Assembly (NCBI GenBank): GCA_001828855.1
Contig: MHZT01000003.1
Coordinates: 186,001 to 250,000, forward strand
Source of the DNA: Rhodobacterales bacterium RIFCSPHIGHO2_02_FULL_62_130
Lineage (GTDB): Bacteria > Pseudomonadota > Alphaproteobacteria > Rhodobacterales > Rhodobacteraceae
Length of the DNA stretch: 64,000 nt
Direction of reading: 5' to 3'
Part shown: one piece after another, positions 55,627-64,000 of the stretch
Layout of the letters: each line of letters opens with the position of its first letter
Numbering within the stretch: position 1 is the stretch's first letter
The notes under the pieces: model-generated
What the model was told of the DNA's origin: nothing
Databases searched by the model: none
The model's input: the letters and a program-made list of their open reading frames with translations, nothing else
Translations under genes and position numbers: made by a program

Positions 55627-55959
55627 TCATTTCAGCGCTACATAGGTCAAAGGGTCAAGCATCGCGCATCTGACCGCGGTGGGTTTTCCCGTAACGTCAC
55701 TGACGATGTCTTTTATCTCTGCACAGATTTCACGAATACGGCCGGTTGTCCGCTCTGGTCGGGGCAAGATGTGCAACTCGACATTCACAGGAGGCTGATC
55801 CTGCAAGGCGCGCACGGGAATGACCACGATATGACAGGCTGACAACGTCACCCCCAAGCGATCACAAAGCAGATCCCGCAAAGCGGGCAGCCTGTTTTCA
55901 AGAGATTGGCCGCAGTCCTGCAAAAGCAGGTGATCCGCAAACAGTTTTACATTGGGCAT
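55627..55959 (-). CDS. Tautomerase-like protein (110 residues)
   Basis: The protein starts MPNVKLFADHLLLQ, so the mature chain would have an N-terminal proline, the catalytic base of tautomerases such as 5-carboxymethyl-2-hydroxymuconate isomerase. It is longer than 4-oxalocrotonate tautomerase but near the size of that isomerase. The identity is uncertain. As the last gene of the operon with a ring-cleaving dioxygenase, it could tautomerise the ring-fission product. Confidence 0.55.
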   Translation of the reverse strand: MPNVKLFADHLLLQDCGQSLENRLPALRDLLCDRLGVTLSACHIVVIPVRALQDQPPVNVELHILPRPERTTGRIREICAEIKDIVSDVTGKPTAVRCAMLDPLTYVALK

Positions 55960-55974
55960 GGCGGACGGTCCTTT

Positions 55975-57015
55975 TCACGCAGGCTCCATTGCGGTGAGCA
56001 AAGCAACATTGTCGGGATGGGCGGCGATTTCGCCGGACTCGATCCGCAAGGCGATATCGACGACGCGCGCGTTGATCGGGGCGGTCTTGCCATGCTGCCG
56101 CAGCACATTGACCACCCAGCCATTGACCTCTTCGATTTCGGCCCGACGCCCTTTGCGCCAATCCTGCAAGGATGTCGTCAAAGTATCCTCGCGCGAGAAG
56201 GTCCGAAGCACCTCGTCGAATATCTGGTCCACATAGCGCTCGGGGTGATTGCTCATGACTGGTGGCATGCCGATGATCGGCATGATCGTCGCGCCATCGG
56301 CCAGCGCGGCTTGCATCGCCTCATATCCTGCGTGGCGCATCACTTCGAGCATACCGGGCGCTCTTGCCGCGTCATTCAGGGCTGTGTCGATGATGGCAGA
56401 GGGGATCAGTTCCGCAGCGTTCACGACCAGTTTCATCCATTTGGCCGAACGGATGTCATCGGTCACCTCGACCCGCCCCGAATTCCGCAAAAGCTGCGCC
56501 ACGCTTTCAACCCGGTGCTGCTGAGCCGGATCAAGCGCCCCAAGCGCGAACCAGCTTTCGTCGTGGTCATTCTGGCGGTTCGTGACGCCCGGAACCCACA
56601 TGTTCGAGGCGATTTCGATGACGGCACCGATGGTTCTGTGTCGGCCCACAACCGTTGCGATGTCTTCGTGCGTCATGCCGTTCTGCAGACCGACGATGAA
56701 CCCATCGGGTGCCAGCACCGGTTTGATCAGGTGGCTTGCCCAGACCGTGTCGTAGGCCTTGACCACAAGGAAGACCAGATCGAAGGGCTGCCTGATCTCG
56801 GCGACCTGACACAGGTGCAGGGCCGGCACGCGCACGTTCAGGCTTCGGGTTGGCAGGTTGACGGTGATGCCGTTGGCACGGATCGCTTCGACATGGGCGG
56901 GCCATTGGTCGATGAAGGTGACATCCAATCCGGCAAGGGAGAAGTCGGCCGCTATCGAGGCACCTTGCGCGCCTGTTCCCAGAAACGCGATGCGGGGGCG
57001 GTTTGTCATGGTCAT
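55975..57015 (-). CDS. Ketopantoate reductase (ApbA/PanE) family oxidoreductase
   Basis: The 346-residue protein has the NADPH motif FLGTGAQGAS at residues 10-19, KAYDT near 87, the QNGMTHED segment near 110 and the catalytic-lysine region KWMKLVVNAAE near 192. PanE-family members reduce 2-keto acids or related carbonyls. It overlaps the dioxygenase gene by four bases. In this operon it probably reduces a keto acid from ring cleavage, and not ketopantoate; that is inference from neighbours. Confidence 0.78.
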   Translation of the reverse strand: MTMTNRPRIAFLGTGAQGASIAADFSLAGLDVTFIDQWPAHVEAIRANGITVNLPTRSLNVRVPALHLCQVAEIRQPFDLVFLVVKAYDTVWASHLIKPVLAPDGFIVGLQNGMTHEDIATVVGRHRTIGAVIEIASNMWVPGVTNRQNDHDESWFALGALDPAQQHRVESVAQLLRNSGRVEVTDDIRSAKWMKLVVNAAELIPSAIIDTALNDAARAPGMLEVMRHAGYEAMQAALADGATIMPIIGMPPVMSNHPERYVDQIFDEVLRTFSREDTLTTSLQDWRKGRRAEIEEVNGWVVNVLRQHGKTAPINARVVDIALRIESGEIAAHPDNVALLTAMEPA

Positions 57016-57890
57016 TCCGAGGTTCCTTGCATCACGCCACGCCGTTGCAGAACAAAATCATAGGTCGAGCGCCATTTCGTCTCGCCGTCCTGAACTGGCA
57101 CGAAGGTGGCGATCAGTGATTGTTTCACTCCAAACACGGCATCAGAGTCGAGATAGGCATCCCCTGCCACGAAGGTGTGGGTGATAACGGTCTCAAAGCC
57201 GTCACGGCTGATGATGAAGTGCATATGGGCGGGGCGATAGGGATGGCGGCCAAGCTGCGCCAGCAATTGCCCGACCGGACCATCGTCGGGGATCGGATAC
57301 GAGACTGGCCTGATGCCTTGGAACCAGTAGCGCCCATCCTCGCCGGTGACGAAGACGCCCCGATTGTTATGGGCGGGCTGGACGCCGGGTTGCTGCACAT
57401 CATAAAAGCCGTCTTCGTTGTCAGACCAGACATCGATCCGCACCCCTTCCAGCGGGGTGCCGTCAAGATCAGTCACGGTGCCTTCGAACAGGCAGGTTTC
57501 GCGGCCGCCGTCCTTGGTAATGCTGGCCCCCATCGGATATTCAGGCACGCCATCGACGTGGAACGGACCCAGCACGGTGTTTTCGGTGGCCCCCTGCGGC
57601 CTGCGGTTGTTGATGGCATCCACCAGCATCGACACGCCCAGCACATCGGACAAAAGAATGTATTCCTGCCGGTTTTCATCACAGATCTTGCCCGTGCGGG
57701 TCAGGAAGTCGATGGCCAGACTCCATTCGTCCTGCGTCAGCGCCACGTCTTTGACAAAGGCATGAAGATGCGACACCAGACTGGCCATGACCCGCGCCAG
57801 ACGGGCATCGGCAGATGGTCCCATCCGCGCATTGACAGTCTGCACCGAGGCTTCTTCGGTGAAATAGCCCGTGCTAGCGTTGGCAGTCAT
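57012..57890 (-). CDS. Hydroxyquinol 1,2-dioxygenase-type intradiol dioxygenase
   Basis: The 292-residue protein matches intradiol dioxygenases of the hydroxyquinol type in length and in N-terminal segments EWSLAIDFLTRTG (near 55) and RQEYILLSDVLGVSML (near 74). The ferric ligands are seen as Tyr163 (GFYDVQ), Tyr198 (PVSYPIPDDGPVG) and His222/His224 (RPAHMHF). The family cleaves hydroxyquinol to 3-hydroxy-cis,cis-muconate, which gives maleylacetate. Its place behind a sugar-type ABC transporter is unusual. Which aromatic substrate it uses is not shown. Confidence 0.82.
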   Translation of the reverse strand: MTANASTGYFTEEASVQTVNARMGPSADARLARVMASLVSHLHAFVKDVALTQDEWSLAIDFLTRTGKICDENRQEYILLSDVLGVSMLVDAINNRRPQGATENTVLGPFHVDGVPEYPMGASITKDGGRETCLFEGTVTDLDGTPLEGVRIDVWSDNEDGFYDVQQPGVQPAHNNRGVFVTGEDGRYWFQGIRPVSYPIPDDGPVGQLLAQLGRHPYRPAHMHFIISRDGFETVITHTFVAGDAYLDSDAVFGVKQSLIATFVPVQDGETKWRSTYDFVLQRRGVMQGTSE

Positions 57891-57975
57891 GGAGCATCCC
57901 TTCAACTGGACAGCATATCTTACGGCTCTGCCCAAGCAGGCAGGGGGGGCGTTTCGGGGCCAAGGTCATGGCTTT

Positions 57976-60504
57976 TCAGGAGTTCGTGCGGCTGCGCGCG
58001 GTTGAATAAATCAGCGCGGCCGACAGGATCAACGCCCCTTGGAAGACGTATTGGTATGTCTGGGAAAGCCCGAGGAAGGACACCGCATTCAGCACCTCGG
58101 TCAGAAGAACGGCCCCCATGACCGTCCCGACAAAGGTGCCACGGCCGCCACGCAGGCTTGTGCCACCCAGAACAACGGCTGTGATGCTGGCCAGCGTGTA
58201 ATTCACCCCCTGCTGGGGATCACCGACACCGATCTGGACCATCAGCATGACGGCTCCAAGGGCGGTAAAGAACGCAACGGCGATGTAACCGGTGATGGCC
58301 ACACGATCCACACGGATGCCCATCCGCCGCGCTGCACCTTCCTCGGAGCCAAGCGCGCGTAGTTGCCAGCCCGCCCTACTGTGACGCAGGACATATTCCG
58401 CAATCAGGGCAACTACGACCAGCGCGATGAAGGCCACGGGGATCGGCCCCAGCTTCCAGCCGATGACATCCATTACCGCAAAGTTGATATAGCCCCCCGG
58501 CCCGTCGCGCAGCACAAAGCTTAGCCCCTGAAGGCCGATATACATCGCCAAGGTCGCCGCAATCGGGGTGAAGTTGGCAAACCGGATCAGGCAGCCATTC
58601 ACCGCCCCGACCACGAGTGCCGCCGCGACCATCAAGGCAAAGCCAAGCGCGATTGTCTGCGGCGACTGCCCGTCATTGATGAAGAACGAGGCGACGACGA
58701 CCAGAAAACCGGCCAGAGGCCCGACCGAAAGATCAATCCCGCCGATCAGCAAGGCAATGGTCTGCCCCATCGCAATGAAACCAAGGGCCGTCGCCAACAA
58801 CAGGATGTTCGAGATGTTGAAGGCCGACAGATAGTTGGCGTTCTGGCTGAACACGTAAAGGCCCAAGGCCACCACCACCGCGACCAAAGGCGCGACAGTT
58901 GCGTTGTCGCTTTGCAAGTAGTGATGCAATCTGCGCCCCTTGTCGCGGGCGCGTTGCACCGCATCTCCGGCGGTGGTGCCGTGTGATTGTGCCTTGACCG
59001 CGGCGGCGACTATGCGGGCTTCGGTCACATCGTCGCCGCGCAGCGTCTGCGCCACTTGCCCGCGTGACATCACGACGACGACATCGCACAGCCCTTCCAG
59101 TTCTGCAGCATCGGACGAATTCACGATAACGGGCGTTCCCGATTGCGACACCTCGCGCAAGATCCGGTAAATCTCGAACCGTGCGCCCACATCGACGCCT
59201 TGTGTCGGCTCGTCTGCAAGGATGAAGCCGGGCCGCGACATCAGGGCGCGTGCCATCACAACCTTTTGCTGGTTGCCCCCCGATAGCGACAATATTCCTG
59301 CATCCAGCCCCGGCGTCTTGACCGCAAGCGATCCGAACACCTTGCCGACCTCGGCCAGTTCCTTGCGGCGGCTAACGATGCCAAAGCTGCTGAACTGGTC
59401 CAGCGCGGAAAAGGTCGCGTTCTCGCGCACGGTCAGGTCGGCGGCGATGCCTTCGCTGTGGCGGTCGGATGGCATGTAGGCGGTCTTTTTCTTGACCTCG
59501 GCCTGCGACAGCGCAACGCCGTTCAGCCGAACCTCGCCCTGCCACGGCTCCAGCCCCGCCAGCGCCCGCATCAACCCGGCCTGACCATTGCCTTCGACCC
59601 CCGCGATGCCGATGATCTGGCCGCGACCGATCTCGAAGTCGATGCCTTTGAACTTGCGTCCTGACAGCCCTTGCACGGCAAAATTGATCTGCGGGGCGGT
59701 GTCCTCGCATTTCGGCGGAAAGGCCGAAGCAAGGCTGCGCCCGACGATCATTTCCAGCAGGTCATCATCCGAGACGTCGCGCACAAGGGCGCCCCCTTCG
59801 ACCCGCCCATCGCGCAAGACGGTCACGCGATGCGCGATCTGGCGCAATTCGGCCAGTCGGTGGGTGATGTAGATCACCGCCGTGCCTTTTGCCACGACGC
59901 TGCGGATGCGGCTGAACAGCATCTCGGTCGCGTCCTGATCCAGTGCCGCAGTCGGCTCGTCCAGAATGAGAACCGGAGGCCGCGTCGCCAGAGCCTTGGC
60001 GATTTCCAGCAGATGCTTTTGCGCTACGGTCAGGCTGTCGGCGCGGGCGTGCAGCGGAATGGCCAGTCCGACATCATCCAGCATCGCCCGCGCAATTGCA
60101 GCCGGATCACCGCCCGCGAACACGTGGTCGGGCAGGGCGACGCGCAGGTTCTCCAGCACTGACAGATCATCCAGCACCGCCGGATGCTGATACGAGATCG
60201 CCACCCCCAAGTGGGCGGCCTTTTCGGGCGACATCGGTGTAACCGGCTGCCCGTCAAAGGCAATCTCGCCATGCTCGGGTGTCAGAACGCCCGAGATGAT
60301 ATTCATCAGGGTCGATTTGCCTGCGCCGTTTTCGCCCAGAATTGCATGAACCTCGCCGGGGTAGATGTCGACCGACACATCCGACAGTGCCACCACACCG
60401 GAAAACACCTTGGTGATGTTGGAAAGGCGGATTTTGGGCGCGACAAGGGCTGCCTCGGCGGCCTTTTGCATGTGCATGTCATTCATGGGCGTTACCTCGG
60501 GCAT
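57976..60504 (-). CDS. Fusion of tandem CUT2 ATPase and permease
   Basis: The 842-residue protein joins two ATPase domains (Walker [10 protein letters not shown] near residue 57, Walker [12 protein letters not shown] near 180, second-domain LSGGNQQK near 400) to a permease from about residue 530 to the end (GGIDLSVGPLAGF near 605 and GGTSLRGGRG near 785). These are normally separate proteins. A second, free permease is encoded at 61640, so the transporter may contain two different permease halves. The start is 60504 or the in-frame ATG at 60486, which has a GAGGTAA site. Confidence 0.88.
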   Translation of the reverse strand: MPEVTPMNDMHMQKAAEAALVAPKIRLSNITKVFSGVVALSDVSVDIYPGEVHAILGENGAGKSTLMNIISGVLTPEHGEIAFDGQPVTPMSPEKAAHLGVAISYQHPAVLDDLSVLENLRVALPDHVFAGGDPAAIARAMLDDVGLAIPLHARADSLTVAQKHLLEIAKALATRPPVLILDEPTAALDQDATEMLFSRIRSVVAKGTAVIYITHRLAELRQIAHRVTVLRDGRVEGGALVRDVSDDDLLEMIVGRSLASAFPPKCEDTAPQINFAVQGLSGRKFKGIDFEIGRGQIIGIAGVEGNGQAGLMRALAGLEPWQGEVRLNGVALSQAEVKKKTAYMPSDRHSEGIAADLTVRENATFSALDQFSSFGIVSRRKELAEVGKVFGSLAVKTPGLDAGILSLSGGNQQKVVMARALMSRPGFILADEPTQGVDVGARFEIYRILREVSQSGTPVIVNSSDAAELEGLCDVVVVMSRGQVAQTLRGDDVTEARIVAAAVKAQSHGTTAGDAVQRARDKGRRLHHYLQSDNATVAPLVAVVVALGLYVFSQNANYLSAFNISNILLLATALGFIAMGQTIALLIGGIDLSVGPLAGFLVVVASFFINDGQSPQTIALGFALMVAAALVVGAVNGCLIRFANFTPIAATLAMYIGLQGLSFVLRDGPGGYINFAVMDVIGWKLGPIPVAFIALVVVALIAEYVLRHSRAGWQLRALGSEEGAARRMGIRVDRVAITGYIAVAFFTALGAVMLMVQIGVGDPQQGVNYTLASITAVVLGGTSLRGGRGTFVGTVMGAVLLTEVLNAVSFLGLSQTYQYVFQGALILSAALIYSTARSRTNS

Positions 60505-60547
60505 GTCACCGTCCTGCTGTCCCGCTTTGCGCGGAAAGGTCTTAGAA

Positions 60548-60577
60548 CGCGGCCCGAGGCAAATCCCCCGGGCCGCG
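60548..60577 (-). terminator. Hairpin between binding-protein and ATPase-permease genes
   Basis: CGCGGCCCG at 60548-60556 pairs perfectly with CGGGCCGCG at 60569-60577. It lies in the 81-bp gap after the binding-protein gene and probably protects or partly terminates that message. Confidence 0.65.
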
Positions 60578-60585
60578 CGCTGTCT

Positions 60586-61647
60586 TTATTGGCCGACGGC
60601 CTTGGCCTGCGCGTCATCTGCCATTTCGGCCGACAGATAGATCGAACCGGGCAGGTCATCGCGGCAGGTCACAGGGTTCGGACTGCCGGTGACCGAGTTT
60701 TCATAGACCGGCGCCTTGAAGATATTGTCGGCAGGCGGGGTGCCACCGGTTGCCAGAGCCACCGCCCATTGCACGGCCAGACGCACGTTGTCGTTGCCGG
60801 TTGCCACGGTGAACAGTTTGAAGTCCGGATTGGCTTCGTGGTTCTGTTGCCAGAAGCACGACAGCGAATTGCCGTCCGAGGTGGCAATCGCGGGGATCGA
60901 GCGGTTGAACTCGGCAAATACCGGCAGCGCGCCCACCAGCGACGGGCCAAAGTCGGACACGATCACGTCGATCTTGTCGTTCTTGGCAATCTCGGCGGAA
61001 AGAACCTGCTGGGTCAGCGAGGGGTCCCAGTTGGTGACGGCAAAGGGTTCGGGATTGATGAAGACATATTTGTCATCCAGCACCTGTTTCATGCCGGCCA
61101 GTTCGTCCAGACCCTGGCTGTTGCCTGCGGGGCCAGAGAGGAACAGGATATTGCCGCCCTCGGGCAGGGTTTCCTTGATCCAGTTGCCCCAGCTTACGCC
61201 ATCCTCGACAAAGGACGACCCGATGAACTTGGCATAGTTCTCGCCTTCGACACCGCCGACGTTCACGCGGTAAGGCACCACGATAGCGCCCGAACGATGC
61301 GCGTTGGTCAGGGCGGGCAGCACGGCGGGGCCTGCGTCACCGAACACAACCAGCGCCTTGATACCGCGCGCCGCCATCGAGTTGATGTCCGAGATCGCCT
61401 TCTGGGTGTTGCCCTGACCATCGGCATAGACATATTCGGTGATGCTGGGGCATTTCGCGGCCTCTTCCTGACCCGAAGCCGTCGTCACAAGACGCCAGCT
61501 ATTGCCGCCAAACCCGTCGAGCAGGCCAAGCGAAGCCTGGTTCGGTCCGCACCAAGACGGCGTTTCGGCAAGGGCTGTTGTCACTGACAGCGTGGCGGTC
61601 AGGGTTGCGGCTGCAAAAGCCGCCGACATGATCTTCGCTTTAGACAT
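60586..61647 (-). CDS. Periplasmic binding protein of the fused ABC transporter
   Basis: The 353-residue protein has a signal peptide ending ALA-E near residue 27 and a type I sugar-binding domain. Four cysteines of the mature chain (WCGPN, AAKCPS, LSCFW, VTCRDD) could form two disulfides in the periplasm. GGAGGAT before ATG 61647 fixes the start, which overlaps the upstream permease stop by eight bases. Neighbours point to a cyclic polyol or aromatic-related ligand, but the sequence alone does not show it. Confidence 0.83.
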   Translation of the reverse strand: MSKAKIMSAAFAAATLTATLSVTTALAETPSWCGPNQASLGLLDGFGGNSWRLVTTASGQEEAAKCPSITEYVYADGQGNTQKAISDINSMAARGIKALVVFGDAGPAVLPALTNAHRSGAIVVPYRVNVGGVEGENYAKFIGSSFVEDGVSWGNWIKETLPEGGNILFLSGPAGNSQGLDELAGMKQVLDDKYVFINPEPFAVTNWDPSLTQQVLSAEIAKNDKIDVIVSDFGPSLVGALPVFAEFNRSIPAIATSDGNSLSCFWQQNHEANPDFKLFTVATGNDNVRLAVQWAVALATGGTPPADNIFKAPVYENSVTGSPNPVTCRDDLPGSIYLSAEMADDAQAKAVGQ

Positions 61648-62671
61648 TGTCCGTATCCTCCGAGTTGGACTGTTGTGCACGATTTGTTGCGGACCGCTTC
61701 CAGCGGACCGAGTAAACGCCGATCCCCAGAACCAGAGCCAAAGCCTGAATGATGGTCTGGGCGGAAAACGGCACTCCGACGGCGAGGGCGAACTGGCTCA
61801 ACTGGTTGAGAAAGAACGCGGCAATCACGGTCGAAATTGGAAACCCTCGGCCACCCAGCAAAGAGGTTCCGGCCAGCACCACCACCGCAACCGATGGCAA
61901 AAGCAGGCTATCCCCCTGAAAGGCGGTGGGTTCGCGGGTGATCCCCGAAATCAGGATACCCGCGACGCAGTAAAGCAGTTGCGCCAGCACATAGGCCATG
62001 GATTGATAGAGACGCACGCGCAGACCGGCAGCATGGGCGGCGGCAGGGTTTGCCCCGATCGCCTCGAACTGGCGACCGGCGACTGTTGCCTTCAGCACAA
62101 AGCTGACAAGGACCATCAGGCCGAGTGCAAAGAGCAACGAGTTTGGAACTCCGCCTGTTTTGCCGCCTGCGATTTGCGACATCAGCGGCGTGGTGATGCG
62201 TGGCACGCCCCCCGAAACCGCAAAGACGGCCCCGTACAGCAGCGCGTTCATCCCGATGGTCGCAATGATGGCATTCAGCCGCATCACCCCGACAAGGATG
62301 CCGTTGGCGATGCCCGCTACCAGCGCGCAGGCAACCGCGATCAGGACCGCAGACAGCAACTGCCCGTCATCGCCCGATGACATATGGGTGGTGATCACCA
62401 CCGCCAGCGATACCCCTCCGGCCAGCGACAGATCGAAACCGCCTTGCTGGACCACCAGCATCTGCCCGAGACCGACAATGGCAATGATCGCGGCAAAGGG
62501 CAGGCTTCCGGCCAGCGCACCTGCCGAAATCGCCGAGGGCGCAAAGGCCGCGCAGACCAGCAGCAGCACCAGCGTCGAGGCCACCACGGTCACAAAGCCA
62601 CGGGCAAAGCGAACCGACCCAAGACCCAGCGGAAGCCCGCCCGAAGATGTTACCTGAAGTTGTTGCGCCAT
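61640..62671 (-). CDS. CUT2-type ABC transporter permease
   Basis: The 343-residue permease has about eight to ten hydrophobic stretches, with GGFDLSLAGGVSLAVV near residue 77 and GTSLLGGRGFPISTVI near 274. It is a free-standing permease beside the fused ATPase-permease gene, so it probably forms a heteromeric channel with it. Its 3' end overlaps the binding-protein gene by eight bases, and the dehydrogenase gene lies 32 bp upstream in the same direction. Confidence 0.85.
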   Translation of the reverse strand: MAQQLQVTSSGGLPLGLGSVRFARGFVTVVASTLVLLLVCAAFAPSAISAGALAGSLPFAAIIAIVGLGQMLVVQQGGFDLSLAGGVSLAVVITTHMSSGDDGQLLSAVLIAVACALVAGIANGILVGVMRLNAIIATIGMNALLYGAVFAVSGGVPRITTPLMSQIAGGKTGGVPNSLLFALGLMVLVSFVLKATVAGRQFEAIGANPAAAHAAGLRVRLYQSMAYVLAQLLYCVAGILISGITREPTAFQGDSLLLPSVAVVVLAGTSLLGGRGFPISTVIAAFFLNQLSQFALAVGVPFSAQTIIQALALVLGIGVYSVRWKRSATNRAQQSNSEDTDNV

Positions 62672-62703
62672 TCGGTTCTCCCCTCCCGTGTGCGTGCCGT
62701 CGT

Positions 62704-63684
62704 TCAGGCTATTTCAAGCGTGATCTTGACGGCCTTTGTGGGGTCTTTGCCCAAGTCGTAGGCTTTGATCGCATCATCCAGCGCAAAGCTGTGGGTCTGG
62801 ATCGGTGACAGGTCGATGCCGGTGCGCTCCAGAAAGCGGATCGCGGCGGGCCAGACACCCGGCGATCCGATGCAGCCGCGCACGGTCAGATCCTTGATCT
62901 GGATTTTTCCCAGTTCGACCGGAATTTTCTGGCCGATGCTGATGCCCACCATCGAGACAAAGCCTTCGGGCCGCGCATAGTCGAACACGTTGGCCAGCGA
63001 CGACGGATGACCTGCCGCCTCGACCACCAGATCGGCGCCGCCTTTGGTCATCTCGGTCACGGCCTCGACCGGATTGCCGTCGGACGGGTCCACCGTGCCG
63101 ACCGCCCCCAGCTTCATCGCGATTTCGCGGCGCAGAGGCACAGGATCGACCACGATCACCTTGGCCCCCATGCCGATGGCCGCCGCCGCCGAGACCAGAC
63201 CGATGGTCCCCCCGCCAGAAACCACCACCGTCTGCGAGGCATCCACCCCGCCATGACGCAGCACCGCGTAATAGCCGCAGGTAAAGGGTTCGATCAGCGC
63301 GCCCTTGGCATCATCGACACCATCGGGAAGTTTGTGCAGCCATTCGGGGCGGGCGGCAAAGTATTCGCGGTTCGCCCCGTCCATGGAAAAGCCGAAGTGG
63401 TGGATGCGTTCGGGTGTGCGGATCACGCATTCGCCCACCACTCGGTCGCCGCGCTGCAAGCCTTTAACGTTGCGGCCAACCTCGACCACCTCGCCCACCC
63501 ATTCGTGACCGGGGGTCACCGGATAGGAGATCGGGATGATGTATTTACCCGCCAGCAGTTCATAATCCGAATGGCAGATCCCCACACGACGCGACCGCAC
63601 CAGCACTTCGTTGTCGCTGATCGAGGGCGTCTGGATATCGGTTACGATAGGCTGGTTCGGCTTGTCGAAAATCAGGGCTTTCAT
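62704..63684 (-). CDS. Zinc-dependent alcohol dehydrogenase lacking the structural zinc lobe
   Basis: The 326-residue medium-chain dehydrogenase has catalytic zinc ligands Cys37, His60 and Glu61 (CHSDYE, GHEWVGEV) and the NAD motif GGGTIGLVSA near 157. The loop that usually holds four cysteines for a structural zinc (around residues 85-105) has only one cysteine and is shortened. It likely oxidises a polyol or sugar hydroxyl in the pathway of this operon. It follows a Gfo/Idh-type gene that enters from the right edge. Confidence 0.82.
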   Translation of the reverse strand: MKALIFDKPNQPIVTDIQTPSISDNEVLVRSRRVGICHSDYELLAGKYIIPISYPVTPGHEWVGEVVEVGRNVKGLQRGDRVVGECVIRTPERIHHFGFSMDGANREYFAARPEWLHKLPDGVDDAKGALIEPFTCGYYAVLRHGGVDASQTVVVSGGGTIGLVSAAAAIGMGAKVIVVDPVPLRREIAMKLGAVGTVDPSDGNPVEAVTEMTKGGADLVVEAAGHPSSLANVFDYARPEGFVSMVGISIGQKIPVELGKIQIKDLTVRGCIGSPGVWPAAIRFLERTGIDLSPIQTHSFALDDAIKAYDLGKDPTKAVKITLEIA

Positions 63685-63706
63685 CTGTCTCTCCGTCTGT
63701 GCGCGC

Positions 63707-64000
63707 TCAGGCTACGGTTTCGATGCGGCCGCTTTTGGCCGATGCAAATACGGCCTCCAGCAGAGCGATGTTGTTGACCAGATGCTCGGCGGTCACCGGA
63801 TAGATGGGGCCACCGCGCACGGCACGGGCAAATGCCACAAGGTTGTCCTGCACCGGTTCGGCCTTGCCGATCTCGCGGGTGATGATCGGGCCACCGGCCA
63901 TGGCCGAGGTGACGATCCAGCCATCAGGGGCCTCGACATGGGCCTTGTCGCGGATGTCGATCCAGCCCTTTGATCCGTAGACGGTAAAGCGCGACATGAA
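63707..64000 (-). CDS. Gfo/Idh/MocA-family oxidoreductase, partial (N-terminus beyond window)
   Basis: Ninety-seven codons up to the stop at 63707 are present and the frame is open at the right edge. They encode the C-terminal domain of a Gfo/Idh/MocA oxidoreductase: a beta-strand segment FTVYGSKGWIDIRD followed by GGPIYPVTAEHLVNNIALLEAVFASAKSG (residues given in two parts) and the short tail. The NAD-binding domain is outside. It is first in the operon so far as seen, so it could oxidise the imported polyol. Confidence 0.72.
   Translation of the reverse strand, partial: FMSRFTVYGSKGWIDIRDKAHVEAPDGWIVTSAMAGGPIITREIGKAEPVQDNLVAFARAVRGGPIYPVTAEHLVNNIALLEAVFASAKSGRIETVA

Follow-up and report, generated by a model that had tools for sequence, protein, structure and literature searches.

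Layout of the operon

The window analysed here, a stretch of 64,000 nucleotides from contig MHZT01000003.1 of Rhodobacterales bacterium RIFCSPHIGHO2_02_FULL_62_130, ends in a minus-strand operon in which polyol-type dehydrogenases and a sugar-type importer stand beside a hydroxyquinol-type ring-cleaving dioxygenase. Every gene that a preliminary description had named in this operon was found where it had been placed. The lowest coordinates hold a 110-aa tautomerase-superfamily protein recognised by its predicted fold (TAUT, 55627..55959), followed, likewise on the minus strand, by a ketopantoate-reductase-like (PanE/ApbA-like) dehydrogenase with ApbA and ApbA_C above the Pfam cut-off (PANE, 55975..57015) and by an intradiol 1,2-dioxygenase of the hydroxyquinol type, identified from sequence matches and motifs (DIOX, 57012..57935). 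The importer comprises a fused CUT2 ATPase-permease with two ATP domains (ABC, 57976..60504; PF00005 in two stretches and PF02653), a periplasmic binding protein (SBP, 60586..61680; PF13407, Peripla_BP_4, and predicted fold) and a second CUT2 permease (PERM, 61640..62671; PF02653). Beyond it, still on the minus strand, lie a Zn-dependent medium-chain dehydrogenase (ZDH, 62704..63684; PF08240/PF00107) and the C-terminal part of a Gfo/Idh/MocA dehydrogenase (GFO, 63707..64000; PF02894), which is cut by the window end. The intergenic gaps between operon neighbours were −41 to +81 bases.

The operon continues past position 64000 and was followed on L004 (L and a number denotes a locus, C and a number a contig), the same contig stretch running beyond the window, whose first 9,000 bases are the last 9,000 of the window. 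The head of the operon consists of the rest of GFO (full-length gene at L004:8707-9717), a YciI protein (L004:9714-9998), a PRISE-type short-chain dehydrogenase/reductase (SDR) (PRISE, L004:10019-11089) and a Zn-dependent butanediol-type dehydrogenase (BDH, L004:11124-12191). Two divergent genes follow, encoding a HIBADH-family dehydrogenase (HIB, L004:12499-13437) and a 576-aa protein with SBP_bac_1/8 domains (L004:13448-15178). We treat the latter as a putative regulator; its only match to a transcriptional-regulator domain is weak (E 0.078) and lies at the N-terminus, and it is possibly a one-component protein whose transporter-like, CUT1-type solute-binding domain detects the imported compound. 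Past it, at L004:15315-17582, a short amidohydrolase-like frame, a GntR-type regulator and a proline-racemase-like gene, all named by eye, look like a separate unit.

DIOX scored 428 bits against 6-chlorohydroxyquinol 1,2-dioxygenase (8r2x) and 250 bits against hydroxyquinol 1,2-dioxygenase (1tmx), whereas the best catechol 1,2-dioxygenase and the best chlorocatechol enzyme reached 132.5 and 127.3 bits. Its scores against the catechol and chlorocatechol equivalog models were far below their cut-offs. The earlier assignment to the hydroxyquinol type was thus confirmed. The iron ligands of hydroxyquinol 1,2-dioxygenase are two tyrosines and two histidines, and all four are conserved in the alignment of DIOX with 1tmx; the motifs GFYDVQ, YPIPDD and AHMHF are at positions 176, 213 and 236. 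Translation may actually begin at the ATG of codon 16. Judged from these matches, DIOX probably cleaves a trihydroxybenzene ring.

The importer has the CUT2 make-up, with a Peripla_BP_4 binding protein, a double ATPase and BPD_transp_2 permeases, and these domains together with the fold of the binding protein agree with the CUT2 transporter described before. The best NCBIfam models for ABC were xylose, allose, arabinose and ribose ATPases, all under cut-off. The predicted fold of SBP (pLDDT 78) gave Z scores of 23.7-26.5 among its best 50 matches, which were sugar- and polyol-binding proteins, and its sequence matches were weak, the best being 4irx at 37.7 bits. Importers of the CUT2 type usually carry neutral polyols and sugars. 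Reading a ligand from the fold neighbours was abandoned, as ribose, glucose, xylose and myo-inositol proteins all stood among these best 50 matches.

Conservation of the gene set and exchange of its parts

The gene set was mapped in 31 distinct loci, mainly from Rhodobacterales and Rhizobiaceae and including two metagenome-assembled genomes (Alphaproteobacteria and Proteobacteria). The loci were gathered mostly from dioxygenase searches, and also with the binding protein and other genes, and they were labelled as module loci from their gene maps. Four duplicate genomes were counted once (L027/L103, L028/L104, L031/L094 and L034/L089), and a further module record, L134, stands outside the 31. 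DIOX was present in all 31 loci, the ABC ATPase in 29, BDH and SBP in 27 each, ZDH in 26, YciI, GFO and PanE in 25 each, PRISE and a maleylacetate reductase (MAR) in 23 each, and the putative regulator in 18. Many of the misses are cut contigs: six truncated loci were treated separately, the head of L053 is missing too, the sequence of L060 breaks off immediately ahead of BDH, and in several others it stops short of the regulator. A second arrangement, in which BDH-MAR-DIOX stands apart from SDR-YciI-GFO-ZDH-importer, was seen in L090 and L091 and partly in L053 and L102. L109 kept BDH, HIB, YciI, DIOX, MAR and PRISE. The check proposed in the preliminary description, a search for the same genes elsewhere, found the set conserved.

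The presence of DIOX in every locus is partly a matter of selection because most loci were found by their dioxygenase, and the reverse test is therefore fairer. GFO and SBP were each searched for over 394 family genomes, apparently the same draw. The eight genomes with an SBP of at least 70% identity were exactly the eight with a GFO of at least 83%, and DIOX was in the same locus in all eight. Among plasmids, nine records had a GFO of at least 60%, the same nine had ZDH (the only nine at E≤1e-60), and a dioxygenase was found in each of the nine. In a class-wide draw, SBP at E≤1e-60 was found in one of 385 genomes, that of the window, so the gene set is patchy. On the other side of the account stand two further family genomes with an SBP of 62-64% and no dioxygenase near (L095 and L096), and one (G142) with a GFO of 42%. 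In L096 (62% binding protein), SDR-like frames, old-yellow-enzyme-like proteins and small proteins were read by eye near the importer, and this importer branch may carry non-sugar rings. More distant importer homologues (L067 and L068) adjoin other genes and gave no functional clue.

The tree of DIOX was built from 55 matches, reduced to 51 by removing the four duplicate genomes and to 46 for the approximately unbiased (AU) test by removing five long rows; a filter of 230 aa without a stop left out the module loci L039, L059 and L060. The tree of the upstream genes had 30 rows, five of them under half filled, and was made by a quick method with a short search; L112 is in neither tree, and the SBP alignment omits L025, L034 and L060. 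Module DIOX sequences did not form one clade (AU p=1.5e-5), with five changes on the tree, at least three of them forced. In the upstream-gene tree, six Rhizobiaceae loci that have the fused importer formed one clade (SH-aLRT 100, short search), but their dioxygenases fell into two groups: those of L064, L066 and L107 made a starred clade of their own (99/97), and those of L065, L105 and L106 lay inside a starred group (96/93) that includes non-module DIOX. This pattern indicates that the polyol genes remained in place while the gene for ring cleavage was swapped or recruited anew. Exchange of DIOX beside constant polyol genes argues for a functional link, and the product of the upstream genes is therefore probably what this class of dioxygenase cleaves. 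The importer was exchanged as well. In Rhizobium indicum (L112) and Paraburkholderia largidicola (L109), another, CUT2-like importer stands beside the module enzymes (SBP 31% and ABC 35% in the former, SBP 29% and ABC 36% in the latter), which argues for a sugar-like substrate. The gene set, its protein families, its conservation and the repeated exchange of both dioxygenase and importer are all established at the level of sequence.

These results bear on the idea of an ordinary sugar operon that a dioxygenase adjoins by chance or for detoxification. Related importers without a dioxygenase nearby would fit it, but the same upstream genes have repeatedly retained or swapped the DIOX next to them and genes for 3-oxoadipate breakdown join in four loci, and we consider such an operon improbable. 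A mere chance neighbourhood was rejected on the co-occurrence in eight of eight family genomes and on the trees of the dioxygenase and the upstream genes.

Steps after ring cleavage

TAUT had no Pfam or NCBIfam family above cut-off. Its predicted structure (pLDDT 94.4) had its best Foldseek match in the tautomerase superfamily (E 1.3e-6, TMq 0.72) and aligned to that fold over 103 residues with a Z score of 13.6 and a root-mean-square deviation of 2.0-2.2, so the tautomerase-like label given earlier held for the predicted fold. In the alignment of homologues, Pro1 was present in 10 of 12 sequences and replaced by Ala in two (L026:11925-12254 and L030:11941-12270), and mutants of non-Pro1 members of the superfamily were among the structures matching TAUT. 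In Paraburkholderia L056, the order is dioxygenase-TAUT-reductase, an acyl-CoA-dehydrogenase-fold protein and a flavin reductase adjoin, and polyol genes were not found. A TAUT relative between dioxygenase and reductase at such a locus suggests that its role probably lies in the steps after ring cleavage, and from the modelled fold a keto-enol step there is probable.

The PanE-like enzyme was found in 25 of the 31 loci, and in plasmids only eight records had it at E≤1e-60, all of them among the nine with GFO and ZDH. It had been proposed that this enzyme replaces the usual maleylacetate reductase of the pathway, and six loci, the window among them, do have PanE adjoining or near DIOX and no MAR in the stretch. 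As a general rule, PanE standing in wherever MAR is missing, and only there, was rejected: within the stretches examined, 19 loci had both enzymes, four had MAR but no PanE (although L106 does have PanE some 4 kb beyond the stretch) and two had neither. MAR was sought away from the locus in the window genome, one of the six with PanE and no MAR, and a homologue was found on contig C36, 55% identical to the Loktanella module gene and beside a second dioxygenase. It thus seems very improbable that the PanE-like protein is the operon's maleylacetate reductase. The locus on C36 (L088) carries a second hydroxyquinol-type dioxygenase (71%), a TAUT homologue and the MAR homologue, apart from polyol genes.

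In four of the 31 loci (L025, L060, L089 and L103), pcaI, pcaJ and pcaF follow the dioxygenase block, and in L063 pcaF lies 7 kb off. The lower half of the route, from cleavage to 3-oxoadipate, is well supported. It resembles the hydroxyquinol pathway of the resorcinol (gra) type in its hydroxyquinol-type 1,2-dioxygenase, its MAR and its product, 3-oxoadipate.

Origin of the ring

The likeness to the gra-type pathway ends upstream of the dioxygenase. Known hydroxyquinol operons form hydroxyquinol with an aromatic-ring hydroxylase, whereas the feed genes here are polyol-type dehydrogenases and a CUT2 importer. No ring hydroxylase was annotated in the spans of L063-L066, except for a 103-aa 'putative quinol monooxygenase' (ABM) in L063. 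An acyl-CoA-dehydrogenase-fold family, which we read as flavin monooxygenases (two members were scanned, giving PF08028), had a member within about 5 kb at six of 20 non-module DIOX loci. When the module loci were compared with three such proteins, the only matches were one in L053 (27%, just after DIOX) and a weak one about 9 kb off in L059. An aromatic feed may thus exist in L053. Given the spans of L063-L066, with no annotated ring hydroxylase but the small ABM protein, dehydrogenation and elimination acting on the imported compound are the probable source of the ring.

The best NCBIfam model for ZDH was scyllo-inosose 3-dehydrogenase IolM (161.8 bits against a cut-off of 450), and that for full-length GFO was inositol 2-dehydrogenase (113.7 bits against 355). 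Both scores are far under the cut-offs, so the proteins are not IolM and inositol 2-dehydrogenase by name. These models and the CUT2 import recall inositol catabolism (iol, and IolG-IolM of Thermotoga), but there the ring is hydrolysed, and here it is seemingly aromatised and cut with oxygen. IolE, IolD and IolN were not annotated in the module, IolE and IolD having been checked in the five annotated loci (L063-L066 and L134). The window genome has its own IolD on contig C34 (898.5 bits, above cut-off), and myo-inositol is therefore an improbable substrate. BDH by itself does not mark the module, since the BDH search also brought up L114 and L115, which have no dioxygenase in the stretch shown; in L115 it stands beside an iol operon.

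PRISE scored 248 bits against a solved progesterone 5-beta-reductase, matched PF22917 above cut-off and carries NFYY and LKHY, which we take to be the marks of the PRISE family among SDRs. In sequence, family and motifs, it is like the enone reductases progesterone 5-beta-reductase and iridoid synthase, but it is bacterial and stands in a catabolic operon. Only one PRISE protein was found in the window genome, and none of 14 control genomes had a family match. PRISE homologues were otherwise widespread, with 165 plasmid records, 99 of them from Pantoea.

YciI homologues of 62-65% identity also occur in plasmid loci outside the module. Four of the 100 plasmid records with a YciI match were opened (L108-L111), and MAR and an intradiol dioxygenase adjoin YciI in all four, so YciI appears to belong with the hydroxyquinol route in general, where it may catalyse an elimination or an isomerisation. 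TftG of the Tft chlorophenol pathway is reportedly a YciI-family dehydrochlorinase that acts at the hydroxyquinol stage; in the present operon, there is no chlorinated feed, and YciI stands among polyol dehydrogenases. A sugar ABC importer and a BDH homologue lie near the L108 cluster, and L108 and L110 also have xylose-isomerase-like (AP_endonuc_2) TIM barrels. The YciI-MAR-dioxygenase clusters with TIM barrels and SDRs in L108/L113 (Rhizobium leguminosarum pRL11) and L110 (an Agrobacterium plasmid) are possibly a second class of ring-making loci.

The same TIM barrels enter into two other accounts of the imported compound. It could be an aromatic glycoside or C-glycoside whose sugar is oxidised by GFO and ZDH, after which elimination would free a hydroxyquinol-type aglycone for DIOX. 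CUT2 import, the barrels of L108 and L110 and the presence of DgpA proteins, one solved with isoorientin, among the Gfo/Idh relatives in the PDB all fit. Against it, no glycosidase or TIM-barrel protein was annotated in the spans of the four annotated module loci (L063-L066), no GFO or ZDH was found in L109, and the PRISE enone reductase would be left without a role; we regard a glycoside as unlikely. Alternatively, the compound could be a hydroaromatic of another kind, resembling quinate or having a partly reduced ring, with dehydrogenases finishing the aromatisation as in quinate breakdown. Quinate and shikimate catabolism is similar in that an alicyclic polyhydroxy ring is oxidised, dehydrated to a phenol and cut by an intradiol dioxygenase. 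Just beyond the module in Loktanella (L063) are a shikimate dehydrogenase, a type II dehydroquinase and a protein annotated as sugar phosphate isomerase/epimerase with a 4-hydroxyphenylpyruvate domain. A type II dehydroquinase also flanks L109, and the barrels of L108 and L110 match the QuiC model weakly (36-49 bits). However, protocatechuate and not hydroxyquinol is the end product of the quinate route, CUT2 importers typically serve neutral polyols and sugars, and the quinate-type genes lie outside the module, with none annotated in the stretches of L064-L066. Dehydroquinate and dehydroshikimate dehydratases, which belong to that route, are outside the module in L063 and were not annotated in L064-L066 or L134. 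A substrate of this kind appears quite unlikely.

The reading that we prefer is that the locus serves to import a ring-shaped polyol and to degrade it completely by way of an aromatic ring and its cleavage, and we place it midway between doubt and acceptance. More specifically, and a shade more tentatively, it would be a dedicated aerobic route in which a neutral cyclic polyol is aromatised by dehydrogenation, dehydration and enone reduction and is cleaved as hydroxyquinol or 1,2,3,5-tetrahydroxybenzene towards 3-oxoadipate. We infer the substrate, its aromatisation, the order of oxidation and elimination, the roles of YciI, PRISE, PanE and HIB and all activities from the gene families and their neighbourhoods. 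The CUT2 importer would bring in a cyclitol or a close relative, and the NAD(P)-dependent enzymes BDH, GFO and ZDH, with HIB and an extra SDR in some loci, would oxidise ring hydroxyls to ketones. The ketone would then lose waters by beta-elimination, probably with the help of YciI, and PRISE would remove one ring C=C if the original polyol has too many oxygens, giving hydroxyquinol (1,2,4-trihydroxybenzene) or, in a sub-variant, 1,2,3,5-tetrahydroxybenzene. DIOX would cut the ring, the tautomerase-fold protein would help to turn the enol product into maleylacetate, and MAR, encoded in the operon in 23 of the 31 loci and elsewhere in the window genome, would yield 3-oxoadipate. PcaI, PcaJ and PcaF, present in the operon of four relatives, would convert this to succinyl-CoA and acetyl-CoA.

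By arithmetic, inositol less three H2O, or quercitol less two H and two H2O, equals trihydroxybenzene. Related chemistry is described in two papers: inosose esters give 1,2,3,5-tetrahydroxybenzene by enolisation and beta-elimination under basic acylating conditions (PMC5327690), and myo-inosose gives 1,2,3,4-tetrahydroxybenzene in acid (PMC11467972).

Several observations weigh against this polyol route. The module has no recognised cyclitol dehydratase, and YciI as the dehydrating enzyme is a guess. A flavin-monooxygenase-like protein stands just after DIOX in L053, with a weak match in L059, and the IolD of the window genome suggests that myo-inositol itself probably takes another route. The SBP fold singles out no ligand, and importers 62-64% identical occur without DIOX nearby (L095 and L096). 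PRISE was not found in L066 and L107, in whose sister record L134 it was not annotated either. Neither MAR nor PanE was in the stretches examined of L036 and L053, TAUT reached at least 40% identity in only 12 of the 31 module loci, and its Pro1 is not invariant. Finally, the nearest neighbour of the L065/L105/L106 dioxygenases was the second DIOX of the window genome, with weak support (81/23).

The preliminary description had the ring begin as a polyol or cyclitol. This fits the data and was strengthened by the exchange of dioxygenase and importer, although the identity of the substrate is still drawn from context; the cyclitol-to-aromatic idea is plausible and better supported than before. 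That description also knew of no pathway of this form, and none was described in the titles and opening abstract lines of open-licence PMC papers retrieved for hydroxyquinol with inositol, cyclitol or scyllo-inosose, for quercitol degradation and for a sugar ABC transporter with MAR; subscription papers may describe one. Inositols have long been thought possible precursors of natural aromatic compounds, according to a 1964 paper (PMC5327690). The pairing of polyol enzymes with a trihydroxybenzene-type dioxygenase in a conserved operon makes biological aromatisation directly testable, and it offers candidate enzymes for making phenols from polyols. The conserved cluster suggests that some bacteria make an aromatic ring out of a cyclic sugar alcohol before consuming it. 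If true, cells would aromatise cyclitols in order to feed on them, and this would connect the catabolism of sugar-like compounds with that of aromatics in plant-associated and aquatic bacteria.

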